From Acidobacteriota bacterium (GTDB lineage Bacteria; Acidobacteriota; Thermoanaerobaculia; Multivoradales; J023), in assembly GCA_029263395.1 (NCBI GenBank), contig JAJCXO010000226.1:1-52214 (forward strand): a stretch of 52,214 bases of DNA, read 5' to 3'. The notes under the pieces were generated by a model. The model did no database searches. It saw only the letters and a program-made list of their open reading frames with translations, and was not told the DNA's origin. Below, piece after piece: positions 4,105 to 23,701 of this stretch (within the stretch, counting starts at the first letter, position 1; each line of letters starts with the position of its first letter). The position numbers were made by a program, and so were the translations under genes.

Positions 4105-4280
4105 CTCGTTGGCCTTTCTTGGTCTCCGAACTCCCTCTTGGGTCCAAAACCAATCTATGGGTTCACTCTACCGTGCGTTGAAATACCTCATCAATAGCGA
4201 GTATACGAATCCAAAGTTCGGATAAACCGAATATTGTTGGCTTGTTTGATTAGATTGCATCCCGAAAACCGTTTTTCGCC

Positions 4281-4470
4281 TTCAGGGAGCCCCTGTGGAG
4301 CGAGCACGCGGCGAGTATGTATGAGCAAGAGAACAGATCCTCGCTCTCCAAACTATTGTAACCAATAGGGTTGGCGGACACTAAGGCGCCGAGGCGAGTT
4401 ACGCAGCTGCGCGCGCAGTCCACAGGGGGGCGACCGGACAACCGGCGTTCTTGGACGGGATCTAGTTAAG
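4281..4470. repeat. Dispersed structured element, copy A
   Basis: This block of about 190 bp recurs almost unchanged at 21531-21719 and in diverged form at 4491-4650. Its ends pair: CCCTGTGGA (4291-4299) with TCCACAGGG (4419-4427). Strongly shared internal blocks include GCGAGTATGTATGAGCAAG, CTCTCCAAACTATTGTAACC and GAGTTACGCAGCTGCGCGC. A small stem with CCGG arms follows at 4434-4444. It sits downstream of two minus-strand genes' ends and starts and contains no convincing protein. Confidence 0.85.
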
Positions 4471-4490
4471 AATCACTTATCTTGCCGTTC

Positions 4491-4650
4491 TTGCCTCAGG
4501 GAGGGAGGTCTTGTAGAGCGAGCAAGCAGCGAGCATGGTTGAGCTTCGCACCTGTCTGCATCTCGTATCCGATGGCACCAAGTTACTTAGGCTTACTGTA
4601 AGAGATCCGGCGAGTTCTGGAGCTGCAGCGCAGACCACAAGATCGACTGA
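4491..4650. repeat. Dispersed structured element, copy C (diverged)
   Basis: In tandem with copy A, it shares GAGCGAGCA, GCAGCGAGCATG, GGCGAGTT and GCAGCTGC/GCAGCGCAG-type blocks in the same order and spacing, with much other divergence. Its ends still pair in part: TCTTGT (4509-4514) with ACAAGA (4637-4642). Compared with copy A, two C-G pairs have become T-A pairs, while two inner pairs are lost. Together with copy A it fills the 4105-4737 gap. Confidence 0.65.
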
Positions 4651-4684
4651 GCTCTCGATGCGTTCTTAAATCATTAAGAATCAT

Positions 4685-4710
4685 CGTGCCCGGTCAGTAG
4701 ACCGGGCACG
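4685..4710. terminator. Perfect 11-bp hairpin, probable terminator
   Basis: CGTGCCCGGTC (4685-4695) and GACCGGGCACG (4700-4710) form a perfect stem with loop AGTA, 28 bp past the stop of the minus-strand protease gene. The minus-strand side continues ATGATTCTTAATG, a weak U-rich tail; the plus-strand side continues ACGCTTTT. It most likely ends the protease transcript. Confidence 0.7.
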
Positions 4711-4737
4711 ACGCTTTTACGACAAGTAGTCCGTTGG

Positions 4738-6852
4738 CTACTGCGGACAGATGGTCACGTTGTCGAGACCTGCTTCGATCAGGTCACCGGCGCTGGAGCC
4801 GTCCGAGGTGCGAATCCGCAACTGGACGGTTTGACCATTGGCAGCCGTGGTGGTGGCTTCGGTCCAGACTGCATTGGTGGTGACGTCGCCGAAGCTCGCC
4901 AGCGACTGCCAGGAGCCGCCGTTGAACGAGGCTTCCAAGAAGAAGAAGTCACCGGCAGCGTCGTCACCAGCATCCCGCTGACCATGGAAGTACCAGGCCG
5001 AGACGTCGGAGGCGGCGGTGACGTTGTAGACCGGCGAGGTGGCGATACATTCACCCCCGTCAACATCCACCGTGCCGGCACCGCCGGTGTTGGGCTGGGT
5101 GAAGAGTGCGGAGTTGCCGTCTTGGGCCCCGCCGAGTTGGGTCGTGACGCCACCGTTGACCACTTGGTCCGGGGTGCCGGTGGTGAAGGTTCCGGTGGCG
5201 CAGGAGCCGCTGGTTGCCCAGCCACCGAGACCGCTCTCGAAGCTCTCGTCCACATCGCAGCCACCGCCGCCACCGTCCTCGCGCACCACCACACAAGCGA
5301 AGCGACTTTGATTGTTGAGAGTGCCGGAGTCCTTGTCGTTGGTGAACACCAAGAACATGCTGCCGGTGTAGCTCTGACCCACCGGCACGGTGTAGGACTG
5401 GAAGTCGCCGCCGCCGGTGTATTTGGGTGTCAGGTCAATTTTGCCGGTGCCGGTCCAATTCTGGGTGCCCCAGAATTGGAAGTGCCGTGGGTTGTCGTTC
5501 AAGGTGTCGTTGTTGTCGAAACCGATGGCGTGGATCTCACCTTGTGAGCCCGAGGCGAAGTCGAAGTCGATCACGGTATTTGCCGTGATATTGAAGCTTT
5601 GCGTCGAACGCACCCAGGTGTTGCCGGTCAGCAACAGAATGTCCCCGTCGTCCTCGACCGTCGTGTTGTTGGACGAGTTCTGGTTGGAGTACGAGGTCAA
5701 GGCGAGAGTCTCGAAGTCGATCGCGCCGGCTGGGCAGTCGACGGTGGGGCCGCCGCCGTCGCCGATGTCGAGTGCCGACCACAAATTGGCATTGAAGAAG
5801 CTGGTGCCGCTGTTGTTGCCGCTCGCGCAGCCGCCGTGGGTGTGGATGCCCACCGCTTCGCCGGTGGTTTCGTCGACCACTGGGCTGCCCGAGTTACCGC
5901 CGGTGGTGTCGGTGGCGTACCGCATCGTCGAGCCCGAGGAGCCGGTGTTGGGGCCGACGTGGGTCTGGTTGGTTTGATTGGTCGAGCCACTGTCGACTCC
6001 GAAACCAGTGATACGAATGTTGGCGGGGCCCAAGTCTTGTCGCACATCGAAGGAACCCTGGGCTTGGATCGGCTGGAGGCCAGTTTGGCTGTTGCTCGCT
6101 ACGGTGAAAATGCCCCAGTCGTTGCTGACACCACCGTTGATGAACTGAAAGCTGCCTTGGTTGATCGCATACTGATCTTCCGGCCCAGGAAACTGCACCG
6201 TACCGTTGGAAGTCGACTGGGGTGGATTGAACGACAAGGTGGTGTTGCCGGAACCAGCCAAGCAGTGGCCGGCAGTCAGCAGTTTGCCGTTCTCCGCGAT
6301 CCAACCGGTGCAGCCGATAGGATCGATGCGCGCCACCCGCCCTTCAGTCGAGGCGATGCGATCGTCGACACCGCAGATACTTTTAGTGCCGGGGGGTGCC
6401 CAATCACCGACGACGATCTCTGAGATCTCGAGTGTGACATTTTGGTCTCCGGGACCGACGACTAGGCGAACTTCTACCGCGTCACCGTTGAAGTAGGCCG
6501 AGTGGTTGTTCCACTGCTGCAGAGTGGTGGCGTCGAGCCGTTGGGTGGCACCGTCGAGCAACGAGGTGATCTCGACGAAGCTCTTGCGTCCAAGATCGGC
6601 GGCGTCGAATTCGAGCTGCAACCAGGGGGCGCCAGGCACCGAGACGATGTCCTGCACCGCTACATCGTAGTCTTGGAGGCCGCTGCCCGCTGCGTCGCTG
6701 GTTCCATGATGGAAGCCAGATGCCCAAGCGTAAGCCTCTCGGTGGTGGGGAAGGGGGGCTGTCTGTGCTTCAGCACCAGTTGGAAGCAGCCCCAAGGCCA
6801 ACATTGCGATTGCTCCGGACACCATAAGTCGATTCAGAATCTCGAGGCGCAT
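4738..6852 (-). CDS. Secreted trypsin-like serine protease with C-terminal accessory domains
   Basis: A 704-residue exported protein. A signal peptide covers residues 1-30 (cleavage near GAEAQ-TA), followed by a presumed propeptide to about 158. The S1-type protease domain spans about 160-370. Its triad is readable: His196 in LLTAGHC, Asp245 in SNDWGIF, Ser321 in TGGNSGSPV. Residues 375-530 form an uncharacterised beta-rich region. The last 170 residues start FESGLGGWATSG and resemble the MAM-like jelly-roll modules found behind bacterial extracellular enzymes. GGAGAAA precedes the ATG. It is probably an extracellular protein degrader. It stands alone on its strand, with a hairpin terminator downstream. 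Confidence 0.88.
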   Translation of the reverse strand: MRLEILNRLMVSGAIAMLALGLLPTGAEAQTAPLPHHREAYAWASGFHHGTSDAAGSGLQDYDVAVQDIVSVPGAPWLQLEFDAADLGRKSFVEITSLLDGATQRLDATTLQQWNNHSAYFNGDAVEVRLVVGPGDQNVTLEISEIVVGDWAPPGTKSICGVDDRIASTEGRVARIDPIGCTGWIAENGKLLTAGHCLAGSGNTTLSFNPPQSTSNGTVQFPGPEDQYAINQGSFQFINGGVSNDWGIFTVASNSQTGLQPIQAQGSFDVRQDLGPANIRITGFGVDSGSTNQTNQTHVGPNTGSSGSTMRYATDTTGGNSGSPVVDETTGEAVGIHTHGGCASGNNSGTSFFNANLWSALDIGDGGGPTVDCPAGAIDFETLALTSYSNQNSSNNTTVEDDGDILLLTGNTWVRSTQSFNITANTVIDFDFASGSQGEIHAIGFDNNDTLNDNPRHFQFWGTQNWTGTGKIDLTPKYTGGGDFQSYTVPVGQSYTGSMFLVFTNDKDSGTLNNQSRFACVVVREDGGGGGCDVDESFESGLGGWATSGSCATGTFTTGTPDQVVNGGVTTQLGGAQDGNSALFTQPNTGGAGTVDVDGGECIATSPVYNVTAASDVSAWYFHGQRDAGDDAAGDFFFLEASFNGGSWQSLASFGDVTTNAVWTEATTTAANGQTVQLRIRTSDGSSAGDLIEAGLDNVTICPQ

Positions 6853-7508
6853 GTCTGTTTCTCCTGCCTGATCCGAGGTTCAGCAGTGCGCGGTCACCCT
6901 CCGTCACCGGGTCGGACCGTTTGTCGACGAAGGCCCACTTGTCGACGAAGGCCCACTTGTCGACGTAGGCCCATTTGTCGACGAAAAGCCCAGGCGGCCG
7001 ATCCTGTGGCTACAGGAGTGGGCTGTCACCATGGGAGGCTTTTTCGCCATAAGACAGTCTTCGGGCACGGTGAGTTGCGAGCACCAAGGGTTCCCAAAGC
7101 GTCGCCACGCCGCGCGATATTGGGCACGCAGGCTTGGCCTTTAGAAGGCTGTCTGGTGCCTGATCGCTCGGTGCGTCAGGAGGCTGTCGCGTTCTGCCAA
7201 CGCTTCGGCTGTAAAGGTAAGACACAAGAAAAATAGCATACAATCTGGTCTATATCAATGAGCCTTTGTTGGGCGCACGGTGGTGACTACCGTGGAATGC
7301 TGTTGTTGGTAAAGGTGTGTCAGGATGCTCCCACGAATATAGAGTCCCCAAAGTAGGAACCCTCCTGATTGATGTCGTCACGGTCGAATCAAGAGTTGCA
7401 GGCCACCGCGGTGTCGGTGGTGTCGATCTCTGTTGTCGATCTCCTTTAGAGTGTGGTTCGAGGTTGGAAAGATGAGCCTGAAACCGTCTCGTGGAAAGGA
7501 AAGCGCCA
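6853..7508. other. Intergenic region with an 18-bp array, no gene seen
   Basis: This 656-bp gap separates the divergent protease and reductase operon. The only structure I recognise is the 18-bp array at 6921-6988. AT-rich sequence at 7220-7270 is a plausible place for the reductase promoter, but no clean -10/-35 pair or FNR-type palindrome was identified. Confidence 0.6.
6921..6988. repeat. 18-bp tandem repeat
   Basis: Units of TTGTCGACGAAGGCCCAC begin at 6921, 6939, 6957 and 6975, the last one partial. Each has an internal GTCGAC palindrome. The array is just upstream of the protease start, so it lies in that gene's leader or promoter region. Confidence 0.9.
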
Positions 7509-8204
7509 ATGTCGGATTCTGAACCGGTCCCGTGGGAGAACGTCGGTCGAGAACCGCAGAAAGCCCGCAGCCGGGCTGGCATGGTGGTCGATCTCGAACG
7601 CTGCATCGGCTGTCATGCGTGCAGCGTGGCGTGCAAGACCGAACACAGTGTGCCCCTCGGCGGCTTTCGTACCCGGGTGCGGTATCTCGAGCGTCCGGAT
7701 CGGCCAACGCTGGCATTCCTTCCCCTACTGTGTATGCAATGCCAGGACGCTCCGTGCCTGGACGCTTGTCCGACCGAGGCGTTGCGCCGCGGTGCTGATG
7801 GTCGGGTCGAGATCGATCAGGACCGTTGTTGCGGCAACAAAGCTTGTGTTGCGGCTTGTCCCTACCAGGCGATTTTCATCAATAGCGAGACCGGTCTCGC
7901 CGACAAATGTGATTTCTGTACGCACCGCACCGAGGTTGGGCTCGATCCAGCCTGTGTTGCCGCCTGCCCTTGTGATGCGCTGCGATTCGGTGATCTAGAT
8001 GATGCGCAGGATCCGGTGAGTCAATATGCCGAGCAACGGGGAGCACGACCGTTCAAGGAAGACGCCGGCACGCGACCCAGTGTGCTTTATGTAGGGCATG
8101 AGGACTGGATGGAGCCGGCAGCGAAGAGCGGTATCCAGATCTCGCGCGAAGATCGCGACATCGTTTACGAACAGCCGGTTGGTGAAACGGAACCGTCCCG
8201 ATGA
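7509..8204 (+). CDS. Four-cluster ferredoxin subunit of a molybdopterin oxidoreductase (PsrB/TtrB type)
   Basis: A 231-residue electron-transfer subunit. Four cysteine groups are visible: CIGCHACSVACKTEH, CMQCQDAPCLDACP, CCGNKACVAACP and CDFCTHRTEVGLDPACVAACP, enough for four [4Fe-4S] clusters as in PsrB, TtrB, PhsB and ArrB. The ATG at 7509 is chosen over a GTG at 7491 because GGAAAGGAAAG lies just in front of it. The gene overlaps the NrfD-like gene by 4 bp, so the two are translationally coupled. It would carry electrons between the NrfD-type quinol module and the catalytic subunit encoded two genes downstream. It has no Tat signal and presumably travels with the catalytic subunit. Confidence 0.92.
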   Translation: MSDSEPVPWENVGREPQKARSRAGMVVDLERCIGCHACSVACKTEHSVPLGGFRTRVRYLERPDRPTLAFLPLLCMQCQDAPCLDACPTEALRRGADGRVEIDQDRCCGNKACVAACPYQAIFINSETGLADKCDFCTHRTEVGLDPACVAACPCDALRFGDLDDAQDPVSQYAEQRGARPFKEDAGTRPSVLYVGHEDWMEPAAKSGIQISREDRDIVYEQPVGETEPSR

Positions 8205-9091
8205 GTGGGGGGCATGCCGATCTCATCTTGACTCCGTTCGGCTGGCCGGTGGTGATCTACATGACGCTCGCCGGTATCTCTGCGGGTGCTGCCCTGACCA
8301 GTTGCTGGCTGCTTTGGAAGGCGGAGGAGGGCTGGCATCGTCTGGCCAGGCATGGTCTGTTGTTGTCGGCAGCAGGGATCTTCTTCGGTAGCCTCTTCCT
8401 CATCGCCGACCTCGAGGCTCCCAGCCGGTTCTGGATGATTCTGGTCTACTTCAACCCAGCCTCATGGATCTCGTGGGGGGTGCGGATCATCACCTTGTTT
8501 GGCATGTTGAGCCTGTTCACGTGGCTACTGCTGCATCGCGGTGGAGCGACAAACGGAGAGCTGCCTACAAGTCTGAAGTTGACCACCGGGTTGATCGCTT
8601 TCCTCGGTCTAGCGATTGGCTTGTATCCCGCGTGGGTGCTCATGCAGTCGGTGGCCAGACCCTTGTGGGGCAGCCCTTTGATCGCACCGCTGTTTCTGGC
8701 TTCCGCAGTACATACCGGGCTGGCAGCGCTTGTACTGATCCAGGTAATGGGTGGCTCAGAGCGTCGCGAGGCTCCAGGAGGCCGTCGACTCGAAGGGGTG
8801 CTCGTCGTTGTACAGGCTTTGTTGCTGGGGTTGTATGTTCTGTTTCTGACCAGCGGCGGTTACGACGCGGCAGCAGCCCGCCTATTACACGGTGAATTGG
8901 CACCCTGGTTGTGGGTTGGGGTGATTCTGCTCGGCTGGTTGATTCCGTTGGCGACCACCCTCGGTTCGGCTGCTGGCTCCGGTCGCCTGTTGTTGCGCGC
9001 TGTGTGTGTGTTGGTTGGCGGCTTGGCGCTGCGGACTTGGATTATTTTTGGTGGTCAAGGCGCAGATGCCCTGATCAGCACCTTACGGTAG
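8201..9091 (+). CDS. NrfD/PsrC-type membrane quinol subunit
   Basis: A 296-residue polytopic protein with about eight hydrophobic helices (for example around 15-40, 48-68, 88-110 and 125-150). Helix order and acidic/His loop residues suit the NrfD/PsrC family, which oxidises menaquinol and passes electrons to a peripheral FeS subunit without heme. Its start overlaps the previous stop by 4 bp, and the catalytic gene begins 15 bp after its end. The operon order B-C-A is typical of complex iron-sulfur molybdoenzymes. Confidence 0.9.
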   Translation: MSGGHADLILTPFGWPVVIYMTLAGISAGAALTSCWLLWKAEEGWHRLARHGLLLSAAGIFFGSLFLIADLEAPSRFWMILVYFNPASWISWGVRIITLFGMLSLFTWLLLHRGGATNGELPTSLKLTTGLIAFLGLAIGLYPAWVLMQSVARPLWGSPLIAPLFLASAVHTGLAALVLIQVMGGSERREAPGGRRLEGVLVVVQALLLGLYVLFLTSGGYDAAAARLLHGELAPWLWVGVILLGWLIPLATTLGSAAGSGRLLLRAVCVLVGGLALRTWIIFGGQGADALISTLR

Positions 9092-9106
9092 GACGGAAAG
9101 CAGATC

Positions 9107-11812
9107 ATGGCGGATCTCGATCGACGTGATTTTTTGAAGCTTGCAAGTGGCACCGCGGTCGGCTTGGCGACGGGAGCTTTGTCGGTTCCGATCTTCAAGC
9201 GCGTGACCGATGGCGCACCAACCAGTGCTGCGACCACTGCCTCGGGCGCTGCAACTGGCAAGATCGACTACACCCGCGCCAAGGCGGTGCCGACGATCTG
9301 TTTCGGCTGCACAACCCACTGTGGGGTGATCGGCTGGGTGCAGGATGACCGAGTTCGAAAGATCGAGGGTAATCCCTTGGATCCCAACTCGCGGGGCAAG
9401 ATCTGCGCCAAAGCCAACGGCATGATCCATTATACCTACTACCCCGAGCGGCTGCTATTTCCGCTCGAGCGGGTGGGCCCACGGGGCTCCGGTCAATGGA
9501 AACGCATCTCCTGGGACGAGGCCCTGGACAAGGTTGCCGGCCGGTTGCGTAAGATCCGTGACGATGGGCATCCGGAACGCTTCATCTTCCACTATGGCCG
9601 CGACAAGACGAAGGGGTTCACCAGCCGGTTCACCAATGCGTTCGGCACCCCGAATCGTCTGAATCGACGGTCGATCTGTAGCTCGAACCGTCGGGCTCCG
9701 CTGATGAGCTTTTACGGCCGGGACTTCGAATGGGAGACGCAGGACTTCGCTGAGACTCAGTTCATCCTCAACTTTGGCGCCAATCCGATGGAGGCGTATC
9801 AGGGTGGGTTGTTCATGATGCAGCGCATCCAAGACGCGCGGGTTGATCATGGCGCCCAGATGGTGACGTTCGAGGTCAGGCCGTCTGCCACCGCCTCGGT
9901 TTCGGACGAGTACTTCGCCATCATGCCAGGCACCGATGGTGCCGTCGCGATGGCGATGTGTCATGTGATCCTGGCGGAGAACCTACACGACGAGGTGTTC
10001 TGGACGCGCTGGGCCAATTTCCCTCTCGACGATTTACGGCAGCACCTGGAGCCTTTCACACCGGAATTTGCCGAGCAGGAAAGCGGGATACCGGCGGCGG
10101 ATATTCGGCGACTCGCGATCGCTTTTGCCCAGGCCGCGCCCCGTTGTTGCACCTTATCGAATCGCGGCTCAGCCAAACACTACAACGGCATGCAGGCCGA
10201 TCGTGGCATCCGCATGCTCGATGTGCTGGTCGGCAACGTTGGTAAACCGGGGGGCTACTGTCTCAGCACGCTGCGGATGTGGAGTGGGCATTACGGCCAG
10301 GACGGCTTACCCAAGATCTCGCAACCCAAGCCGTCACCGCCCAAGCCGAAACCTTACCTGCCGGGCACACCCCAATTCGCCGAGCTGCCGGCCGAGGTAC
10401 AGGACCGAGTGCAGGGTTTTCCCGAAGTTTGGCAGAAGAAGTACTTTGGCGAGCTGGCGACCCCAAGTGAATACCCGCTGTCGTTTCACTGGTACACGAT
10501 GCGTGTTGGCCAGCTGGTGCAAGAGTACATCCGCCAAGGGCGAGCCAAGGTTGAGGTCTACATGTCTTATGTTTACGGCGCCGCTTATGGTTATCCAGAA
10601 GCCAACTTGGTGCGTGAGGTGTTACGGGACGAAAAGCTCATTCCTTTCCATGTGGCAATTGAGATCGGTTACAGCGAGCAAGCAGCCTTGGCCGACATGA
10701 TTCTGCCCGAGGCCACCAGCCTCGAACGCTGGGATGCCCACTCGCAAAACGCCTACGGATTGATTCCCTACACCGGGATCCGGCAACCGCTGGTGGATCC
10801 GCCCGGGGAGGCACGGCCGGTGCAGATCATCCTGCGTGACCTGGCGCGGCGGATCGGCGGCGGCATGGAGCAGTACTTCGATTTTGAGGACGTCGAGGAC
10901 TTCTACCGCGAGTGGTACCAGAATGTGCCCTTGTCTTGGGAAGAGTTCAAGCGTCGCGGTATCTGGCACGACCCGACTCGAAGCCTGGACTATGAGCTTT
11001 ACGAGCGGCCAGTTCCCGAAGACAAGTTGGCCGGCAGCGTCGTCGACCCCAAGACCCAGATCATCCACCAGAGCAAGGATGGCAAAAAGACTGCGGTCGG
11101 TATCATGATGGATGGCAAGGCAGTCCAAGGTTTTCCGACACCGTCCCGTCGGATTCAGGTGTACGACGAGATTTTTCCCGAGGCCGCCAAAGCGGTGGAT
11201 CTACCGCTGACGGATGGCAACGCCAGCCCACTGCCGATCTACTTCAGGATCCCCTCGCACGAAAATCTAGACGACGACGAGTACATCCTCACGACCTTCA
11301 AGTGGAATGTCCACACCCAGGGCCGTTCGGGGCACCTCAAGTATCAGGCCGAGATTGTCCACACCAATCCTTTGTTCATGCATCCGGAGACCGGTCGCGA
11401 GCTCGGTTTTGATGAAGGGGACGAGGTTGAGGTGACGACGTTTCGTCCAAAGGGGTACACCTTCCGGGCTGGGGAGGAGGAGCCGGTCGGCTCGTTCCGC
11501 AATCAAGTGCGTTTCCTTCGTGGTATGCACAAACGGTGCGTCGCGTCGTCTCACCATGTTGGACATTGGGAACATGGAGCGATCGGCAAAGCGGCGGACA
11601 ATCGTCAGCAAGCTGAGCAGTTTCCAGGCTTCGATACTCAGCATGCCGCGCTCCAGGATCCTGATATTCAGCAGAACAAGATCTGGTGGTCGAAAGACCG
11701 CGGTGGAGTTGGCGGTGGCGTCCACATCAATGATGCGTTGCCGATCAACCCTTGCCCGCTGGTGGGTGGCCAGAACTGGTATGACAACGTCTGCAAACTC
11801 CGTAAGGTCTGA
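9107..11812 (+). CDS. Tat-exported molybdopterin oxidoreductase catalytic subunit (Psr/Phs/Ttr/Arr group)
   Basis: A 901-residue catalytic subunit. The N-terminus DRRDFLKLASG is a twin-arginine signal. Cys65, Cys68, Cys72 and Cys100 (CFGCTTHC ... GKICAK) form the N-terminal [4Fe-4S] site. In GTPNRLNRRSICSSNRR, Cys191 sits where the molybdenum-binding cysteine of the polysulfide, thiosulfate, tetrathionate and arsenate reductases lies. The molybdopterin dinucleotide-binding fold occupies the C-terminal third. AAAGCAG precedes the ATG. Together with the FeS and NrfD subunits it should be a periplasmic, quinol-linked respiratory reductase, or an oxidase running in reverse. The substrate (sulfur oxyanion, polysulfide or arsenate) cannot be fixed from sequence alone. 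Confidence 0.92.
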   Translation: MADLDRRDFLKLASGTAVGLATGALSVPIFKRVTDGAPTSAATTASGAATGKIDYTRAKAVPTICFGCTTHCGVIGWVQDDRVRKIEGNPLDPNSRGKICAKANGMIHYTYYPERLLFPLERVGPRGSGQWKRISWDEALDKVAGRLRKIRDDGHPERFIFHYGRDKTKGFTSRFTNAFGTPNRLNRRSICSSNRRAPLMSFYGRDFEWETQDFAETQFILNFGANPMEAYQGGLFMMQRIQDARVDHGAQMVTFEVRPSATASVSDEYFAIMPGTDGAVAMAMCHVILAENLHDEVFWTRWANFPLDDLRQHLEPFTPEFAEQESGIPAADIRRLAIAFAQAAPRCCTLSNRGSAKHYNGMQADRGIRMLDVLVGNVGKPGGYCLSTLRMWSGHYGQDGLPKISQPKPSPPKPKPYLPGTPQFAELPAEVQDRVQGFPEVWQKKYFGELATPSEYPLSFHWYTMRVGQLVQEYIRQGRAKVEVYMSYVYGAAYGYPEANLVREVLRDEKLIPFHVAIEIGYSEQAALADMILPEATSLERWDAHSQNAYGLIPYTGIRQPLVDPPGEARPVQIILRDLARRIGGGMEQYFDFEDVEDFYREWYQNVPLSWEEFKRRGIWHDPTRSLDYELYERPVPEDKLAGSVVDPKTQIIHQSKDGKKTAVGIMMDGKAVQGFPTPSRRIQVYDEIFPEAAKAVDLPLTDGNASPLPIYFRIPSHENLDDDEYILTTFKWNVHTQGRSGHLKYQAEIVHTNPLFMHPETGRELGFDEGDEVEVTTFRPKGYTFRAGEEEPVGSFRNQVRFLRGMHKRCVASSHHVGHWEHGAIGKAADNRQQAEQFPGFDTQHAALQDPDIQQNKIWWSKDRGGVGGGVHINDALPINPCPLVGGQNWYDNVCKLRKV

Positions 11813-12362: not shown

Positions 12363-12405
12363 AGACAAACCGCTGACTTGGTGGATGCTTCAAAACATCC
12401 AAGCG

Positions 12406-13985: not shown

Positions 13986-14352
13986 GTTTTTTCAGTACGC
14001 TGATCAGTTGATGGAGAGACAAGCCGTGAGTCTCGGCGACGCTCAGCAAACGATCGACCGCGTCCGACAGGTCATCAGGCTGCGCAGCTTGGTTCTGGTC
14101 CTTAGCCGAAATCTCGGCGACAAACACACCCTTACCGGCTTGGGTGGTGACCCAACCGGCCAACTCCATCTCACGGTAGGCACGAGCCACCGTATTCGGG
14201 TTGATGCGCAGATCGATAGCCATTTCACGTACCGACATCAACCGCGTGCCAGCAGGGAGTGAACCGTCGGCTATCCGTTCAGCGAGCTTGTCCGCCAGCT
14301 GACGATAGAGCGGCGCCCGTGCGGCTGGGTCGAGATGCAGCAGGTGAGTCAC
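13948..14352 (-). CDS. YtrA-type GntR transcriptional repressor
   Basis: A short GntR regulator: an N-terminal winged helix (APLYRQLADKL ... GTRLMSVREMA ... NPNTVARAYREMELAGWV) plus a helical tail of about 60 residues, with no large ligand domain. This is the YtrA subfamily plan. I place the start at the GTG at 14352. A good promoter (TTGACT, 16 bp, TATTAA) ends just upstream and would put +1 at about 14353, so the message may be leaderless. An upstream TTG at 14382 lies inside that promoter. It should autorepress through the two palindromes upstream and control the downstream membrane protein and peptidase. Confidence 0.88.
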   Translation of the reverse strand: MTHLLHLDPAARAPLYRQLADKLAERIADGSLPAGTRLMSVREMAIDLRINPNTVARAYREMELAGWVTTQAGKGVFVAEISAKDQNQAAQPDDLSDAVDRLLSVAETHGLSLHQLISVLKKRALLSTEKKLRA

Positions 14353-14387
14353 ATCTGTATTAATACAGTGTTGTAAGTCCAAGTCAA
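14353..14387 (-). promoter_or_regulatory. Promoter of the GntR operon
   Basis: On the minus strand, -35 TTGACT (14387-14382) and -10 TATTAA (14365-14360) are separated by 16 bp. The -10 lies within the proximal operator and the -35 directly abuts the distal operator. Transcription would begin near 14353, at or next to the proposed GTG start. Confidence 0.7.
14355..14368. promoter_or_regulatory. GntR operator 1 (perfect palindrome)
   Basis: CTGTATTAATACAG is a perfect 14-bp palindrome covering the -10 element. An identical copy lies 33 bp away, three helical turns and hence on the same DNA face. Confidence 0.8.
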
Positions 14388-14401
14388 CTGTATTAATACA
14401 G
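14388..14401. promoter_or_regulatory. GntR operator 2 (perfect palindrome)
   Basis: A second identical CTGTATTAATACAG, immediately upstream of the -35 element. The two-site layout suggests cooperative autorepression by the adjacent GntR protein; this is inference. Confidence 0.8.
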
Positions 14402-14423
14402 ATCTAGATTATCTCTGGCGTCT

Positions 14424-17400
14424 TCAGAAGAGTTGAATGATGCCGGAGTCCAAGGCTTCGAGGAATTTGACGAGATCCGCTCGTTCGGCGGTACTGAGAC
14501 CGAGAGGGCGGATCTCTGGATCGCCAGAGACGCCGCCGGTCTCATAGAGATCGATCACTCCAGAGAGAGTGCTTTCAGCGCCGTTGTGAAAGTAATCCAC
14601 CGTGTGTTGGACGTTGCGCAGGGTTGGCGTCTTGAACGCGCCCTGGTGTTCTTGACGAAGTGTCAGGGCCCCTGCGCCAGTGTCCGTGGACGTTACGACG
14701 CTGCGATGTAGAGTGTTGTCGGCCAGATTGGGCCCGTGGTGGCAAGCGGCACAGCGCGCTTTGGTGAAGAACAGTTTGCGTCCTCGCAGGATGGCAGAGG
14801 CGTCAGGGCCGGTGAGTGGAATCCCGTCCTCGTATTTGTCGATGACCGAATCGCCCGCAACGATGGCGCGCTGGAACGCGGCCAGCGCTAGTTCGAGGTC
14901 GCTGAGGTCTGGTACTGAGGTGCCATAAGCTGTCTGAAAGTTGTTGGGCGTGCCGGTTTGTGCGGCGGTGGCGTAGTTGGCCTGGATGTAGGCTTCGACG
15001 GCACTCTGAGTGTTGTTCATTTCATCTGGGGACAAGATGGGCAAGCTGGCTTGCGCCTCGAGTGACTGCGCCCGTGCATCCCACAGCTGAGTGTCGCCAA
15101 ATGCACGATTGAAGACTGGCGGCGTCTGGCGAGACAACAAGGTCCCGGCGCTGCCGGTCGAAAAGCCAGCGTTGCTGCTCTCGGCGAAGAAAGCGCTCGA
15201 CTGATGGCATGAAGCGCAGGCCATGTTCAATGAACTGTGTGATAGCCCGGGATCGTTGAAAAGGTCGCGGCCGAGGCCGACGCGTTCGGTGGTCAGGTCG
15301 AATTGTGAGCCATTCGGAATCTTCAGGAAGGCTTGATTCGTGCTGTCGAGCCCGGCCGGCAGGCCTGGCAATGTTGGATTGTCTCGGAAGAGGGACGGCG
15401 CCGGAGTCACGTAGGCGAAGGCGGCTACTTCGTTAGCAGTCCAGGTTGTGCCCCAGATCTCCAGGTCGTCGACCGAAATGTCGGCCGGCGTTGTGGTGAT
15501 CTGAGTGCCGATTTCGAGCGTCGACACTGAGCTGCCGACCACGCCGAAGCGCACGGCGGTACTTTCGAGCACACCGTCGAAGTAGAGTCGCAGGTGGGTG
15601 CTGTCGCGGGTGAAGGCCACGTGATGCCAATCCGGTCCGGCGACCAGAGTGTGGAGGCTGGTGGTGAAGAGGTTCAGGCCGGTGGTGGTGATCACCGTGG
15701 CTCGAACCCGGCCGTCACTTTCGAGAGTGAGCTCGAAGGAGCCATTCTTGCGCACCAGATAGCGGCTACCCCCGCCGTTGGCGTCGACGCGGACAAACAG
15801 CCCAACACTGAGCCCGCGATCAAAGCCGCCGACTGGGCTCAAGGCTGGGCCGTTGGCGACATCGATCCCCCCGGCGCCAACGATGCTGATCGACTCACCG
15901 GATTTTGGGCCGTTGAAACCGTCATGACTATTGGGAAAAAAAGCGCCGCCGACCAAGGTTCCGGTCTGGCCACGGCCCGAGAAGTCGTCGGTTTTCCCCG
16001 AGTCGACGTTGAAGCCCCCAGGTACCTCGTCAGGGCCCGGTAGTTCGCGTAGCGCTTTGTTCATGCCCAGCCGCAGCAGACGGTCGGGGCGTTCGGCGAA
16101 CAAAGGGATCTCGACGTAATTGTTCACTTCATGACCGTAGAGTGCCAGCTTGCGATCACTGCCTTGCAGGTAGGGGATGGGCCGTTTGCCGACATCGATT
16201 GGTCCCCACATGCCGGGGGTTGGGCCCCAGCCGACGAAGGTTTCGCGGTCGTCGGTGTTGTGCGATCCAGACAGGAAATCTGTCGGGTTGACCGGGCCGT
16301 CGACGTGCTGGAGATAGAAGCCGGTCGAGGCACCGATGATTCCGGTCCGGATGTGGGCTTGAGCGTTCCAAATGACGTCGGTGGCGTCGAGGGTTAGCCA
16401 GCAATAATTGCCGTTTATTTTGACCAACGGCGTACCCGAGCCGTCGAGCAAGGGCTGGCGGGCGATCGGGTAGATCTCGTGGAATGTGCGTCCGTTGTAG
16501 GGCGCGAGCGTCATTCCGATGGTGTTGGCGTGGAGTGCGGTCAGATGATCGGGGATGCTCCAGCCGTGAGGATCGGTGGGGTCGTCACGGTAGGCGTACA
16601 CCAAGACGTTCTGAGTGAAGAACGGCATGGTGTTGCTGCAGCCGGGCGGCGAGCCGGGCATCAGGCAGAAGAATTGATCGAAGGCCGAGTTATCCCCTGG
16701 CTGGTTGCAACTTGGGGTAGCACACGGCCCGTGCCCTTGCGGCGGTCCTCGCAAGGTACCGGTGCCACATGGGGAGCGCGACACGATGCCATGGACAGGG
16801 TGCCAATAAGTGAAGCAGCGGCCTCCGGGTTCGCCCAAATCATCCGGTGCCACCTGAGCCGGATTACCCTGCCACACCAGCAGGCGACCGTCTCCACTGA
16901 GGGTCGGCTCGAGCCCGGTGAGCGGGAAGTGGTTACCGGTGGCACTGGCAAACGACACACTCGAGGCGACGCCGCCATCTACCCATTCGTAGCGCACGAT
17001 CCTTTGGGTGGCGGCGAGCGGGTCAACCGTCAGCCGCAGCCGGCGTTGCAGGAAGGTCTGAGTGTTTCGTCTGAAGTCCAGCGGCAAACCTGATGCGATG
17101 GTCACATCCGACAAGGTAGGTGCTGGTGGCGCCGGTTTGCCGGTCCGGATATTGGCGAGCGGCACTTCCCACTTGAACGCCGCTCTCGCGTCGGATTGGA
17201 GTTTGCCGTTGATCAGTAGTTGAAAGTCGTAACCCTGGCAGCTGCCGGCTAGATCTGGAGCACCGGAGGTGCAGTCGGCTAGGTAGGGGTTGGTCAACGT
17301 CGACGGCAACTCGGGGTCGTCGATGACGGTTAGGAAGTTGGTTTCCTGGTGCCGCGGGCATTCGATACTCGGGCAGGTGCTCGGATCGATAATTCTGATC

Positions 17401-17822
17401 GGCGTGTCGACCCCGGCGCCGAGAAGGGGCAAACCAGTCAGCGCGTCGACCGTCACCTGATCGTGCCGTACGTGGGCTGCAAACAGTCCGCGGTTCTGCA
17501 AGTAATTGTTCTGGGTGTGGGCAAACTCTTTCGCCGCCGAGACGAAGAGGATTTTGCCATCCGGGCTCATCGCTGCCCCACTGTAGACCGGTGGCATGTT
17601 CCGTGCCGGATTCGAGACCACCGGCACACCGGAGCCGTTGAGATCGCCGAGAGCGGCACTCGGCGCTGCGTAGCGGGTCACCGGCGGTGCCGGCGGATAG
17701 AGTGAAAGCTGGTGTGTAGGGACCTGGCCGGTAGTGGGGGCAGGGCTCGCGATGACCAGGGTCATGAACCCTATCGCTGCTAGCCCGAAAACCTTCGATC
17801 TTCGATCTCGGTGCGTCTGCAT
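14424..17822 (-). CDS. Exported fusion: large N-terminal domain, LamG domain, di-heme cytochrome c peroxidase/MauG domain
   Basis: A 1132-residue secreted protein. A signal peptide ends near residue 33 (PAPTTGQVP). Residues 40 to about 650 form an uncharacterised region with several paired cysteines. A LamG/concanavalin-like jelly roll follows (about 670-810, with WHHVAFTRDSTHLRLYFDG). The last 265 residues are a CCP/MauG domain with two heme c sites, CASCH (869-873) and CAACH (1024-1028), and TPTLRNV and YFHNG motifs. AAGGAGGT stands six bases from the ATG. The heme domain should reduce peroxide or oxidise a protein or organic substrate in the periplasm or outside, while the LamG part may bind polysaccharide. 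The substrate is unknown. Confidence 0.88.
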   Translation of the reverse strand: MQTHRDRRSKVFGLAAIGFMTLVIASPAPTTGQVPTHQLSLYPPAPPVTRYAAPSAALGDLNGSGVPVVSNPARNMPPVYSGAAMSPDGKILFVSAAKEFAHTQNNYLQNRGLFAAHVRHDQVTVDALTGLPLLGAGVDTPIRIIDPSTCPSIECPRHQETNFLTVIDDPELPSTLTNPYLADCTSGAPDLAGSCQGYDFQLLINGKLQSDARAAFKWEVPLANIRTGKPAPPAPTLSDVTIASGLPLDFRRNTQTFLQRRLRLTVDPLAATQRIVRYEWVDGGVASSVSFASATGNHFPLTGLEPTLSGDGRLLVWQGNPAQVAPDDLGEPGGRCFTYWHPVHGIVSRSPCGTGTLRGPPQGHGPCATPSCNQPGDNSAFDQFFCLMPGSPPGCSNTMPFFTQNVLVYAYRDDPTDPHGWSIPDHLTALHANTIGMTLAPYNGRTFHEIYPIARQPLLDGSGTPLVKINGNYCWLTLDATDVIWNAQAHIRTGIIGASTGFYLQHVDGPVNPTDFLSGSHNTDDRETFVGWGPTPGMWGPIDVGKRPIPYLQGSDRKLALYGHEVNNYVEIPLFAERPDRLLRLGMNKALRELPGPDEVPGGFNVDSGKTDDFSGRGQTGTLVGGAFFPNSHDGFNGPKSGESISIVGAGGIDVANGPALSPVGGFDRGLSVGLFVRVDANGGGSRYLVRKNGSFELTLESDGRVRATVITTTGLNLFTTSLHTLVAGPDWHHVAFTRDSTHLRLYFDGVLESTAVRFGVVGSSVSTLEIGTQITTTPADISVDDLEIWGTTWTANEVAAFAYVTPAPSLFRDNPTLPGLPAGLDSTNQAFLKIPNGSQFDLTTERVGLGRDLFNDPGLSHSSLNMACASCHQSSAFFAESSNAGFSTGSAGTLLSRQTPPVFNRAFGDTQLWDARAQSLEAQASLPILSPDEMNNTQSAVEAYIQANYATAAQTGTPNNFQTAYGTSVPDLSDLELALAAFQRAIVAGDSVIDKYEDGIPLTGPDASAILRGRKLFFTKARCAACHHGPNLADNTLHRSVVTSTDTGAGALTLRQEHQGAFKTPTLRNVQHTVDYFHNGAESTLSGVIDLYETGGVSGDPEIRPLGLSTAERADLVKFLEALDSGIIQLF

Positions 17823-18217
17823 GGGTGACCTCCTTGTCCGCCGCCGTAGGCGTCGTCGGTCACGGTTTCGGGATCTTGTACCCCGACCTCAACCTCAGCG
17901 CAGACGACACAGAACAGCAGATAACAAGGACGATCGTCGGCGCTCAGAGCGCCTCACCGGCAGGTTTGCTTGCCCTGCATTGTTCACCTTGGCAGCCTTG
18001 GCGTCAAGTCAAATGGTCCAGCGGCCACGTTGTTGGGAGGGCCGGGCTCAATTCGATTGAGGACTGTATTTAAGGAAAGAGGTGTTTATGGAAAGACGGT
18101 GTTTGAGGGAATCTGCCTTGCGTTTGCGCCTACGCAGCTGAGATGTTGATACCTGTTGGGACGACATCTCTTTATCGACGATCGACAAGGAAAACAGAGG
18201 AGGTCACTATCCACAGC
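17823..18217. other. Divergent promoter region, no gene seen
   Basis: This 395-bp gap lies between the divergent peroxidase-fusion and TPR/BNR genes. It must hold both promoters. The AT-richer stretch at 18050-18110 is a candidate. No repeat array or RNA gene was recognised. Confidence 0.5.
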
Positions 18218-20269
18218 ATGAACTCAGCACCTCTCATCAACCGATTGCAGCCTCCAATTGCCGTGGTGGTCTTTCTCCTCATTGGAGCCTGTGGCTGTCA
18301 CCAACCGATCCCAACCAACCCAGGTTTGGCTTTGACGGACTCGTCTTCGACGAACCTGCCGACCGAGGATGCGCCGTCACGGGACCTAGCTCCACCGGTG
18401 CGTAACCCTCGCCAGGCGGCAATGGCTCGAGCGACGGCTGGCCTGATTTTCACCGAAAACCTGGTGACGGTGAATCGGGCTCAGATCACCCCATTCGACG
18501 ATGCAGCTGCGGCCAGGGACGCTGTGGACCATGGTTACAGCCTGCTCGAGCGGGGATATCGGATCGAGGCGATTGCAGCGTTCACTCAGGCGGTGATTGC
18601 GGCGCCGGGAACGTCAGCAGCGTACGTTGGCCTGGCGCGCGCGCTGGCTATCAAAGGACGCTCTCTCGATGCGAGGGCAGCGGTGAGGACCGCGTTGACA
18701 CTCGAACCGAACGATCACGAGGCTCGGTTTTTTCTGGGGTTGCTCGACGAGCGGCTCGGTGATCGAACCGCGGCCATGGAGACCTATGAGCAAGTGCTGG
18801 AACAAGCGCCACTACATGGCCCAGCACATGTGCGCCTGGCGGTGCTCGAACACCTCGTCGGCAGCTCTCGCGCTGCCCGCCAGCACCTCGCAGCGGCGCA
18901 GGCTGCAGGGGCACCGGTGCCGGCTCGGTTGGCAGGCCTGCTCGCAGGCGCCGAACTGGGTAGTGTCGAGCTGCCAGCCGTCGATATCCAGCCTGCCGGC
19001 CGGGGCACTGTCCCCACGGTGGGCCCACAAGTCCGTATCGACGCCGGTGGTGGCGTTGCGCAGGCCAACGAGATCAGTGCTGCGGCATCGGTTGCAGCTC
19101 CGGGTGAGGTGGTCACGGCTTGGAACGACTTTCGTACCGAGGTTGGCCTCGGTGTCGGCGTTACGGTCGACGGCGGCACGACGTGGACCGATTTGATTGT
19201 TCGACCGCCGGTCGCCAATCAAAGCGTGCTGGAGGGAGATCCGATGACGGCAGCTGACCCTCGCACCGGCATACTGTGGGTGGGTGGCTTGTCCTTCCTC
19301 GAAAACGGCGGCATTTTTGTGGCGCGCAAGCAGCCTGGGACTGCCACCTTCGAACCCTCGGTCATGGTCTATGACGGCGGTGGTGTCGACAAACCTTGGA
19401 TGGCAGCGGGTCGGCCACCCGCGACACCCAACGCAACGCACCTGTACGTGACTTACAACTTTGGCCTGCAAACCTCGACCGATCTTGGCGACAGTTGGGG
19501 GCCCTTGGTAGTGCTCGAACCAGGCATCGGTTACCTGCCACGCGTCGGGCCACTCGGTGAGCTTTATGTGGCCAACACGGACTACCAAGCCGTCCGCTTG
19601 CAAACTAGCCTCGACGGCGGGATGACGATCGGCCCGCCGATCGTCGCCGCTACCCGCATGGAACCCTACGATCCGTTCGAGACCGTCCAGATCCCGGGCA
19701 CCTTCAGAGCGCCGTCATTCAACTATTTGGCCGTCGACCCAACGTCCGGACGTCTGACCTTTGTGTGGTTCGACACCACGGCCGTCAGCGGGAACGAGAC
19801 GGACGTTGATCTCTACTTCTCCCACTCCGACGATGGCGTCACCTGGACCTTGCCTGCCGTGTTGGCTTTGCCTGGCGATCAATTCCTGCCTTGGCTCGAA
19901 ATCGATGCCGTCGGTAGGATGCATCTGGTATTCCTCGACACCCGCAACACTGCTCAGTCCGACAGTGACACTGTCGCTTGGCTCGACGCCTACTATGCGT
20001 ATAGTGAAAACGGTGGCGCTAGCTGGAGTGAAATCCGGCTCACCTCGGTGCCGTGGAGCAGTGCACTGGCCGGCCCCTTCGACCAAGGCTTCGGCGAGCA
20101 ATTCATCGGCGACTACTTGGCACTGGCGGTAGCTGGTAACCAGGTCTTACCGGTGTATCTCTCGACCGAAAATGGCGACGCTGATCTATTTACCCGCGTC
20201 ATCACCTTTTCGTCACCGGTGATTTTCGCGGACAACTTCGAGTCTGGTGACACGTCAGCCTGGGATTGA
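18218..20269 (+). CDS. TPR lipoprotein with sialidase-like BNR propeller and FESGDTSAW tail
   Basis: A 683-residue protein when started at the ATG at 18218, which has GAGGAGGT 13 bases upstream. The lipobox LIGAC-GC puts a lipidated cysteine near residue 25. Residues about 80-230 contain three to four TPR helices (for example AYVGLARALAIKGRSLDARAAVRTAL). The rest is a BNR/sialidase-type beta-propeller with Asp-box-like turns (TVDGGTTWT, SDDGVTWT, SENGGASWS). The extreme C-terminus is DNFESGDTSAWD. It is surface or periplasmic. The propeller likely binds or cleaves a glycan, but no catalytic sialidase residues could be assigned. Confidence 0.82.
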   Translation: MNSAPLINRLQPPIAVVVFLLIGACGCHQPIPTNPGLALTDSSSTNLPTEDAPSRDLAPPVRNPRQAAMARATAGLIFTENLVTVNRAQITPFDDAAAARDAVDHGYSLLERGYRIEAIAAFTQAVIAAPGTSAAYVGLARALAIKGRSLDARAAVRTALTLEPNDHEARFFLGLLDERLGDRTAAMETYEQVLEQAPLHGPAHVRLAVLEHLVGSSRAARQHLAAAQAAGAPVPARLAGLLAGAELGSVELPAVDIQPAGRGTVPTVGPQVRIDAGGGVAQANEISAAASVAAPGEVVTAWNDFRTEVGLGVGVTVDGGTTWTDLIVRPPVANQSVLEGDPMTAADPRTGILWVGGLSFLENGGIFVARKQPGTATFEPSVMVYDGGGVDKPWMAAGRPPATPNATHLYVTYNFGLQTSTDLGDSWGPLVVLEPGIGYLPRVGPLGELYVANTDYQAVRLQTSLDGGMTIGPPIVAATRMEPYDPFETVQIPGTFRAPSFNYLAVDPTSGRLTFVWFDTTAVSGNETDVDLYFSHSDDGVTWTLPAVLALPGDQFLPWLEIDAVGRMHLVFLDTRNTAQSDSDTVAWLDAYYAYSENGGASWSEIRLTSVPWSSALAGPFDQGFGEQFIGDYLALAVAGNQVLPVYLSTENGDADLFTRVITFSSPVIFADNFESGDTSAWD

Positions 20270-20285
20270 CTGGGCTGGGTGGTAC

Positions 20286-20582
20286 TCAGATCTGGACTAG
20301 CTCGGCTTGGTAGATCTTGAGTTCGGGGGGAGCGGTAAGACATTCGGTGATCGATGCAACGAAGTCGCGGCTGGCGGGCAAATCAAAGTGTGCCTTCAGT
20401 GCATCGCGGTCAGACCAGCGTTCAACAAAAACGAGACGTAGAGGATTCTCGGTGTCACGGTGCACGCCGTGCTCCAGGCAGCCTGGCTCAGCACGGGAGC
20501 GGTGGACATGGGCGAGGCTGAGAGCTAGTAGATCATCAAGGCGATCCGGTTTGGCGAGAATGCAGCCGGTGACTAGAAGCAT
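20286..20582 (-). CDS. ABM-family (YgiN-like) antibiotic biosynthesis monooxygenase domain protein
   Basis: A 98-residue ferredoxin-like fold protein. The pattern SRAEPGCLEHGVHRD ... LVFVERWSDRDALKAHF matches the ABM/YgiN family of small cofactor-free or quinol-linked monooxygenases. The length is typical for the family. AAAGGAG lies five bases before the ATG. It is convergent with the preceding TPR/BNR gene and stands alone. The real substrate is unknown; family members range from quinol oxidation to heme degradation. Confidence 0.85.
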   Translation of the reverse strand: MLLVTGCILAKPDRLDDLLALSLAHVHRSRAEPGCLEHGVHRDTENPLRLVFVERWSDRDALKAHFDLPASRDFVASITECLTAPPELKIYQAELVQI

Positions 20583-20727
20583 AGAGCTCCTTTCTGATGG
20601 ATAAATGGTGACCAGTTTTTAAGAGGCCAGCTGGCGAGCGTCGGTGACTCACGACCGTTTACGGTGTGTGGGTGGATCATGCGAACAACGCTGCGAAGAA
20701 GGCTACCGCGGCGCTCACTAGACCCAA

Positions 20728-20769
20728 GGTGTCGCATGCCAGCATAATGGTGTCGCATGCCAGCATAAT
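20728..20769. repeat. 21-bp direct repeat, two units
   Basis: GGTGTCGCATGCCAGCATAAT occurs twice head to tail (20728-20748, 20749-20769), totalling 42 bp. It lies in the 238-bp divergent gap between the ABM gene and the next plus-strand gene. Confidence 0.9.
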
Positions 20770-20820
20770 GTCTGTGAGATAACTCAGCTTCTCCAGAGAA
20801 ACCTGTCGACCGTCAAGGTC

Positions 20821-21483
20821 TTGAATACAATCTCGATGCAGATCATATCGCCCGATTCCGAAGCCCGCTCGCTCTTCGACCAATTCCTTGCTGAAGTGGA
20901 TCTCGGCTGCTCAACCAGTCGGCCGGCTCGCGACGTTACCTCGCTGAGCAAAGTTTTGGCCTCCGATCGCGCTGTCCAGATGGGTTTCCTCAGCCTTGCC
21001 CTCGAGTGGAAACCCGGTCTTGACCAAGGACCGACGTGGCGTCAGATCGCAAACCAGGACACCCATCGTCTCGAGCTACTCGGCGAGGTGATCGGCGAGA
21101 TGTTGCGCACCGTCGACGATGTACCTCTGGCTCTGCTCATCCGCCATCTGGCTGAAGTTGAGCCCGTCCTCGACCCGGTTGTGGAAGGGGCGAAGCAGGC
21201 GAAGATGGCGGCACAGTTTGGGCTGCCACAGATCGAGGTTCCTGGGGTCGACCCGGATCGGAAGGCTGCGATCGATCGAGCGAATCGGGTGGATGCCGCG
21301 ATCGACCAACAGGCTTTGTTCGTCGACAGCGTGCTCGCGGCGGTCGCGGCCTCAGCAAATCGCTCCGACCCGGAGTTGCGTTCCGCCCTGGTAGCGCTGC
21401 GTGAACGCTTCGCAGCCTTGGAGGTTCTCGGGGAGCCTGACCACGACGTCTGGATAGCTTCGCTCGATACTCTATTGGCGTGA
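20821..21483 (+). CDS. Hypothetical soluble alpha-helical protein
   Basis: Up to 220 residues from a TTG at 20821 (AAGG five bases upstream), or 215 from an ATG at 20836. It is rich in Leu, Ala, Glu and Arg, predicted almost entirely helical, with no signal peptide or membrane span. I recognise no family or catalytic motif. Good codon-position composition and a preserved frame over 660 bp support it as a real gene. It is followed directly by dispersed-element copy B. Confidence 0.65.
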   Translation: MNTISMQIISPDSEARSLFDQFLAEVDLGCSTSRPARDVTSLSKVLASDRAVQMGFLSLALEWKPGLDQGPTWRQIANQDTHRLELLGEVIGEMLRTVDDVPLALLIRHLAEVEPVLDPVVEGAKQAKMAAQFGLPQIEVPGVDPDRKAAIDRANRVDAAIDQQALFVDSVLAAVAASANRSDPELRSALVALRERFAALEVLGEPDHDVWIASLDTLLA

Positions 21484-21530
21484 TGTCATTCTATTGGCCT
21501 AATGTTGGTTCTCTGCACATTCCTCGCCTC

Positions 21531-21719
21531 CCTGAGAGCCCTCTGTGGAGCGAGCACACAGCGAGTATGTATGAGCAAGAAAACAGCTCTTAGCTCTCCA
21601 AACTATTGTAACCAAGAGGGTTGGCGGAAATTAAGGTGCCGAGGCGAGTTACGCAGCTGCGCGCGCAGTCCACAGGGGGCGACCGGGCAGCCGGTGTTTC
21701 TAGACGGGATCTAACTAGG
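21531..21719. repeat. Dispersed structured element, copy B
   Basis: Nearly identical to 4281-4470 in the same orientation. Paired ends are CTCTGTGGA (21541-21549) and TCCACAGGG (21669-21677), with one T-G wobble relative to copy A. The internal blocks GCGAGTATGTATGAGCAAG, CTCTCCAAACTATTGTAACC and GCCGAGGCGAGTTACGCAGC are conserved. It lies between a hypothetical gene and the stop of the SPFH gene, eight bases from the latter. Confidence 0.88.
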
Positions 21720-23675: not shown

Positions 23676-23701
23676 GCCAGGCCCGTGTTATGAAATACGC
23701 T

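Follow-up and report, generated by a model that had tools for sequence, protein, structure and literature searches.

Does a short sequence that recurs within a 52,214-nt stretch of an Acidobacteriota genome (contig JAJCXO010000226.1; here the window) belong to a structured RNA, to a mobile DNA element, or to an element that is both? A preliminary description had pointed to two nearly identical copies of a dispersed element of about 190 bp, at 4281–4470 and 21531–21719 (copies A and B), and to a diverged third at 4491–4650 (copy C), with complementary ends that change in step. Sequence comparison establishes for this element its copy number, the covariation and loop conservation of its core, its ends and duplications, its frequent placing at stop codons and one empty site. 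We suggest that the copies probably represent a small, non-autonomous mobile family in which a core of about 165 nt carries a strand-specific, RNA-like fold, and which moves as DNA in the host genus and the next.

Copies and their spread

Copies A and B are 90% identical over 178 nt and 92% over 140 nt, in keeping with their first description, and C is indeed a diverged third copy, belonging to a second subfamily: a BLAST alignment with A reaches its 5' block alone (79% over 43 nt). A covariance model built from 64 sequences (R2), copies A, B and C themselves among them, finds three cores in the window at E ≤10, all on the + strand and in the order A, C, B, with no fourth. The element is dispersed as had been proposed, but its length had been underestimated, as copy A extends between terminal inverted repeats from about 4254 to 4461, or about 208 bp.

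A BLAST search of the host genome (G000, 10.7 Mb) with copy A gave 47 matches, 41 of them long, with 40 of 184 candidates scored, and the 41 long copies were aligned. An earlier covariance model (R1; 33 sequences, with helices P1 and P2 specified by hand) matched all 150 candidates scored out of 2840, at E 5.6e-38 to 1.6e-11. R2 likewise matched all 150 scored out of 3433, including eight places, picked by eye, beyond the R1 list. The preliminary description had made its case depend on there being other copies in the genome, and there are at least 150, a floor given how few of the candidates were scored and the eight new places. The sister species (G001) has at least 103 copies (103 of 104 scored candidates match R1).

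More widely, R1 was positive in 8 genomes among 28 chosen from the order, and R2 matched, per 150 scored candidates, 150 in G000, 61 in G002, 42 in G006, 18 in G020, 13 in G005, 9 in G012, 4 in G025 and 3 in G333. Samples of the phylum, taken with stricter filters and 7–9 candidates scored per genome, were positive in 3 of 297 genomes with R1 and 5 of 396 with R2, G000 being included in both. Besides G000 and G001, nine further Acidobacteriota genomes hold related cores, and copy number varies widely from species to species. The one positive genome outside the class, G333, is also the weakest tie (E 2.7e-4 and 4.5e-4); two of its copies, L100 and L222, have the inner core and a P2 of GGCGCC in common, the CGAGCA/GCGCAG loop described below is absent from them, and an outer helix of 11 pairs can be drawn by eye. 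Phages and plasmids gave no BLAST match to the element. Among viral contigs a short pattern retrieved 10 stretches, none of them with the core, and a longer pattern retrieved none. Searches of one open-access library turned up no published family of this kind.

Searches of Rfam release 15 gave no match over the gathering threshold in the window; at E ≤10, positions 4200–4720, which hold copies A and C, gave three sub-threshold hits (E 2.6–6.4), and six loci of distant relatives gave one sub-threshold hit (E 0.44), outside the core.

Fold and constraint of the core

Helix P1 closes the core; inside it follow an internal loop (CGAGCA/GCGCAG), helix P2, and then the motifs TGTYTGAGC and GCGAGTT around a middle that is specific to each subfamily. 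Subfamilies were defined by average linkage, single linkage at 72% having merged most copies. The stem letters change among them, the P1 arms being CCCTGTGG/CCACAGGG in subfamily A, GGTCTTGTGG/CCACAAGRCC in subfamily C, GTCACGCCGG/CCGGCGTGAC in G004 and GGCCCTGGGG/CCCCAGGGCC in G025, and CGAGCA, GCGCAG, TGTYTGAGC and GCGAGTT are mostly kept, with a CGAGGA variant of the loop in some copies of G005, G006 and G025. A third helix, P3 (CGARACT with AGTTTCG), is found in the G004 subfamily alone, and RNAalifold run on the mixed set was uninformative for the middle.

The end pairings quoted for copies A and C in the preliminary description are present in the sequence, B has its one T-G as claimed, and the two double changes from C-G to T-A between A and C are real. 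In an alignment of 64 diverse copies to R1, 18 of the 19 pairs show changes on both sides, in 253 cells. Shuffling (500 rounds) leaves 72.3 such cells (standard deviation 6.8), and sliding the partner along the sequence leaves no more than 39. Pairing is possible in 89.9% of 1109 cells, against 29–45% with a slid partner, and the covariation measure is 0.517 against 0.115. Because an alignment guided by R1 is biased towards its own structure, two further looks were taken. A MAFFT alignment of 33 sequences, blind to structure, gave 49 both-side-changed cells in 9 of the 19 pairs, against 15.9 in its control. Without any alignment, the P1 duplex of 190 copies (from 200 unique, N-free ones, 10 being dropped for length) came to -27.8 kcal/mol for a copy's own arms, -18.6 for arms swapped between genomes (642 swaps) and -19.1 for shuffled letters; within G000 the corresponding values were -27.5 for own and -22.0 for swapped arms. 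Covariation thus rises above the background of shuffled, slid-partner and arm-swap controls, by statistics that ignore the tree of the copies.

Imperfect pairs suggest which strand would be the RNA. Over 18 pairs of the 64 sequences, G-U occurs in 33 cells and A-C in 13, an excess that fits RNA and points to the + strand; pair 22-238 was left out of this count because it is seldom paired. Within three subfamilies the counts over P1, P2 and one P3 are 117 and 45, a ratio due in part to G-U being itself the commonest pair at some positions.

Constraint on the core is uneven along its length. Mean diversity is 0.04–0.08 in the conserved blocks and 0.23–0.26 in the middle (70 copies of subfamily A, 65 of subfamily C). 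Reciprocal nearest copies of subfamily A (12 pairs) show 9 differences over the 41 sites of the blocks and 61 over the 66 sites of the middle, and those of subfamily C (6 pairs) show 3 over 44 sites and 27 over 63. The blocks are, on this comparison, maintained in every single copy or else in those lineages that go on spreading, and the data are consistent with both. No reading frame is open throughout all copies, the best in subfamily A being open in 24 of 70 and that in subfamily C, an antisense frame, in 54 of 65.

Ends, target sites and the window

In G000, G001 and G002 the copies end in imperfect inverted repeats with the pattern AT(T/C)(G/C)C(A/G)TCCA(A)GAA beside octamers with the consensus CTAGCTAG. 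Among 183 copies with full flanks that were scored, the end motif (≥0.7 identity) is present in G000 on the left of 64 and the right of 83 of 118 copies (shuffled flanks, 1%), in G001 on the left of 16 and the right of 15 of 19, and in G002 on the left of all 6 and the right of 4 (shuffled flanks, 0–3%). A scan of G000 for the motif with at most one mismatch gave 241 places, compared with 82 for a reversed control. In the 68 copies in which both ends could be placed, using motif variants selected from the same data, an exact 8-bp duplication is seen in 18, against 4.3% when right ends were dealt to other copies, and mean octamer identity is 5.60 of 8, against 4.90 when swapped and a maximum of 5.25 in 2000 shuffles. 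The element thus combines terminal inverted repeats, target site duplication, small size, high copy number and no coding capacity, the features of a miniature inverted-repeat transposable element (MITE). At the one locus compared for an empty site, 242 bp lie between the flanks in G000 and 30 bp in G001, the flanks align over 1578 nt (77.5% identity) and 1181 nt (78.5%), and the site follows the stop codon called for the gene upstream.

The same ends also bound other sequences. An element at L096 1487-1700 has these ends and a perfect octamer pair, CTCACTAG, around a different filler, and a search from orphan ends turned up further repeats enclosed by such ends. A second module of repeat type (GTAACGCCGGTTGGCGCTTCATCGCCAAG ... 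CTTGTTCCTTGG) is enclosed in the same way at L096 1487-1700, L212 from 2999 on, L215 3055 (-) and L218 3010 (-); the fillers of L212, L215 and L218 are related, and pieces of this module adjoin A copies in L002, L029 and L083. No autonomous partner was found by end-motif searches or at 15 orphan ends (stretches of 3.6–6 kb under a paired-end scan, 12 of them read by eye). G000, for all its 150 or more MITE-like copies in 10.7 Mb, yielded one DDE_Tnp_1 gene.

By our own codon-score gene calls, 48 of 51 copies are intergenic and 3 overlap a called gene. The 43 intergenic copies with both neighbours called lie between convergent genes in 21 cases, co-oriented genes in 17 and divergent genes in 5. 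A called stop falls inside the octamer at 14 of 43 right and 5 of 38 left boundaries, where about 3% is expected, and TAG is the stop in 17 of these 19, as opposed to 74 of 198 called stops in the background. As an insertion that truncates the end of a gene would give the same picture, these figures describe a placing at stop codons and do not prove a choice of them. The tetramer CTAG is scarce in the window (59 observed, 79 expected from trinucleotides). Ten pairs of copies in the R1 list for G000, picked by eye, lie at most 300 bp apart, six inverted and four direct, where about 0.6 would be expected at random, and the copies of one direct pair overlap by 17 nt. Tandem arrays of the core occur in two other genera, with four copies in G004 (L199 4719-5398) and three and a partial one in G025 (L200 4310-4855), at a spacing of 166–192 nt.

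We propose that a trans-acting factor, presumably a transposase, would link palindromic, CTAG-rich sites to the inverted-repeat ends of the element, leaving the 8-bp duplication behind. As CTAG contains TAG on both strands, an insertion can hit a stop codon and restore a stop, and as each insertion would double its own target, the clusters of copies would be explained. The core would act as RNA, and lineages that lose it would stop spreading.

Table 1. Positions of the three copies and their parts within the window.
Feature	Position	Strand	Basis
Copy A, whole element between ends (ATTGCATCC... to ...GGACGGGAT)	4254..4461	+	sequence, end families
Copy A, conserved core	4280..4444	+	cmsearch R2 146 bits, E 1.9e-31
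Copy A, helix P1 5' arm CCCCTGTGGA	4290..4299	+	sequence, covariation
Copy A, helix P1 3' arm TCCACAGGGG	4419..4428	+	sequence, covariation
Copy A, helix P2 5' arm CGCGGC	4307..4312	+	sequence, covariation
Copy A, helix P2 3' arm GCTGCG	4406..4411	+	sequence, covariation
Copy A, conserved block 1 (GCGAGCA..GGCGAG..TGTATGAGC)	4300..4326	+	mean diversity 0.037 (70 copies) vs 0.227 in middle
Copy A, conserved block 2 (GGCGAGTTACGCA)	4393..4405	+	mean diversity 0.054
Copy A, left terminal inverted repeat	4254..4266	+	end motif families
Copy A, right terminal inverted repeat	4450..4461	+	end motif families
CTAG-type octamer right of copy A, CTAGTTAA	4462..4469	+	octamer comparison
Copy C (second subfamily), conserved core	4498..4657	+	cmsearch R2 106.3 bits, E 2.2e-22
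Copy C, P1 5' arm GGTCTTGTAG	4507..4516	+	sequence
Copy C, P1 3' arm CCACAAGATC, one A-C mismatch with 5' arm	4635..4644	+	sequence
Copy C, P2 5' arm GCAGC	4526..4530	+	sequence
Copy C, P2 3' arm GCTGC	4622..4626	+	sequence
Left direct repeat flanking copy C, TTAAGAATCA	4466..4475	.	sequence
Right direct repeat flanking copy C, TTAAGAATCA	4674..4683	.	sequence
Copy B, conserved core (subfamily A)	21529..21693	+	cmsearch R2 127.9 bits, E 2.6e-27
Copy B, P1 5' arm CCTCTGTGGA	21540..21549	+	sequence
Copy B, P1 3' arm TCCACAGGGG, T-G wobble with 5' arm	21669..21678	+	sequence
Octamer right of copy B, CTAACTAG; left end of B not recognised	21711..21718	+	sequence

Copy C has no recognisable terminal inverted repeats, yet it is flanked on both sides by a perfect 10-bp direct repeat and occupies the T-rich tail of a hairpin resembling a terminator (4713-4682, - strand), behind the gene at 4738-6852. 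Its flanks may reflect either another route of insertion or trimmed ends. The window also holds short tandem repeats with periods of 9 to 42 nt, at 320-439, 769-931, 23689-23754, 31810-31977, 34871-34942, 36885-37022 and 51226-51360.

Explanations weighed

A number of observations weigh against a mobile family with an RNA-like core. As regards mobility, the end motif is rare in G006 (left 2 of 4, right 1 of 4) and G004 (left 3 of 19, right 1 of 19) and occurs in none of 17 copies in G005, G012, G020, G025 and G333. With ends rare or absent outside two genera, the MITE part of the explanation may fail for the family as a whole. Of 147 copies, 68 allowed both ends to be placed, and 50 of these 68 have octamers that are not identical; copy A is among the 50, its right octamer matching the left one (4246-4253) at 4 of 8 positions. 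The sole DDE_Tnp_1 gene is without such ends, PF01609 being the only transposase family searched and no recombinase family being included. As regards the fold, P1 of copy C in the window sets TGTAG opposite CCACA, an A-C mismatch, where the other C-type copies compared have TGTGG, and within P1 of subfamily A the counts of G-U and A-C are nearly even (22 and 18). The folding energy of copy A is 2.1 standard deviations better than that of shuffles, with 6 of 200 equally good, and that of copy C is worse than all 200; such single-copy energies are unconvincing, so that the case rests on comparison. A scan found no sigma-70-like promoter near copies A and C, and the gene pointing towards copy C is antisense to it, with the terminator-like hairpin in between. 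Lastly, singletons per site, a count biased down in variable columns, are as frequent in the blocks as in the middle (0.59 and 0.52 in subfamily A, 0.64 and 0.56 in subfamily C), which taken alone says that single copies decay freely.

The explanations that follow are not mutually exclusive, and neither are the likelihoods that we attach to them. A MITE of DNA only, in which P1 and P2 would be a cruciform or a protein-binding symmetry of the REP/BIME or ERIC kind and RNA would never be used, is a possibility to be taken seriously, if one that we doubt; it is compatible with mobility as set out above and differs about RNA. The terminal inverted repeats with their 8-bp duplications, the intergenic placing and the negative promoter scan at copies A and C agree with it, and the same ends around core-less fillers at L096, L212, L215 and L218 suggest that ends alone may suffice for movement. 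Yet the conserved loops are asymmetric, with CGAGCA opposite GCGCAG and no inverted partner seen for TGTYTGAGC or GCGAGTT, so the element has a strand; the excess of G-U over A-C (33 to 13) and the persistence of the core in genomes of the order without detected ends also speak against DNA alone. An RNA of the host, regulatory or at 3' ends, multiplied for a host function such as stabilising or ending transcripts at convergent genes, seems unlikely. It would accord with the 21 copies between convergent genes against 5 between divergent ones, and with nearest copies having four to six times fewer differences per site in the blocks than in the middle; but orientation is not clearly biased among co-oriented gene pairs (7 S>S, 10 A>A), the sister species lacks the element at the single orthologous site compared, and copy number differs widely between species.

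Retroposition, whereby a retron- or SINE-like RNA would be copied back by a reverse transcriptase, as has reportedly been proposed for msDNA-like repeats of Nannocystis exedens, is improbable in our view. The complementary ends that close the RNA, with AGC just inside, are loosely reminiscent of retrons, direct repeats flank copies, including those of 10 bp at copy C, whose terminal repeats were not recognised, and three RVT_1 genes are present in G000. One of these (L031 1351-3057, G000:C207) encodes a reverse transcriptase of 568 aa that has retron-like motifs and a C-terminal part judged by eye to be trypsin-like. Set against this are the DNA-type inverted repeats with 8-bp duplication and the reverse transcriptase loci themselves, of which L031 and L033 gave no R1 match and L032 none by motif scan; on these same grounds identification of the core as a retron msr-msd was set aside. 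Dispersed msDNA-like repeats reportedly occur in the chromosome of Nannocystis exedens, to judge from the titles of work by Lampson and Rice in 1997 and by Lampson in 2002, both cited in PMC6868368. As far as those titles go, they are like the present element in dispersal and in likeness to a structured-RNA product, and the present element differs in its DNA-type ends, with no link to a reverse transcriptase found. Relics of guide or scaffold RNAs of IscB/TnpB nucleases or IS200/IS605-type elements seem very improbable, judged by Rfam families and target duplications. Many copies of a structured RNA without an adjoining gene would look alike, but no Rfam family passes threshold in the window, the sub-threshold hits at 4200-4720 are to no such family, and target duplications were found, which IS200/IS605 elements do not make.

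Among known repeats, REP sequences are linked to Y1 transposases. REP/BIME repeats are likewise of high copy number, intergenic and often paired in opposite orientations, but in the portions consulted REP are palindromes of 20–40 bp, and a 165-nt core with 8-bp duplications falls outside that description (PMC3733652, PMC2817692). QMITE2 of Coxiella, Correia/NEMIS of Neisseria and RUP are described, in the sections consulted, as elements of 100–250 bp with inverted-repeat ends, short duplications (7–9 bp for QMITE2) and folded predicted transcripts (PMC10969869, PMC2229807). The present element resembles them in size, ends, duplications, little or no coding, more than 100 copies in some and often intergenic placing; as there described, they are unlike it in that its fold is internal to the ends, with conserved unpaired motifs and compensatory change across genera and families, and in that it is GC-rich and its target, CTAGCTAG, is not TA-rich. 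The inner domain, with its conserved loops and its compensatory changes from genus to genus, sets the element apart from the MITEs of those accounts. CIR repeats of Caulobacter and Brucella are also intergenic, with a proposed RNA fold conserved between genera (PMC2229807), but are depicted there as lacking terminal inverted repeats and consisting of two arms plus a linker with a GANTC motif, whereas the present element forms one closed P1-P2 domain with 8-bp duplications. ERIC and YPAL of enterobacteria are dispersed, palindromic mobile repeats, ERIC possibly at gene 3' ends (PMC10969869, PMC2229807); YPAL duplications vary from 3 to 26 bp, against 8 bp here.

We therefore retain a probable mobile family, moving as DNA, with an RNA-like core. 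The preliminary description had spoken of a "new ncRNA or MITE-like RNA"; a MITE-like element with an RNA-like core stands, and a gene for a noncoding RNA is unproven, with no sigma-70-like promoter found by copies A and C and with the unit behaving as mobile DNA in the host genus. More tentatively, the whole may be a mobile RNA family, in which a core RNA (acting as ribozyme, protein-binding scaffold or template) would be needed for spreading, would be older than the present DNA ends, and would have spread over two or more Acidobacteriota classes, with changes of ends, middles and mode of amplification, as a dispersed MITE in one genus and in tandem arrays in others.

For the family itself, the large number of covarying copies provides ready material from which to solve the fold. 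Their placing at CTAG and stop codons offers a simple reason why one genome would tolerate 150 or more insertions. An internal fold with conserved unpaired motifs and compensatory change over several genera and families poses the question of whether RNA can be a requirement for a small mobile element in bacteria.

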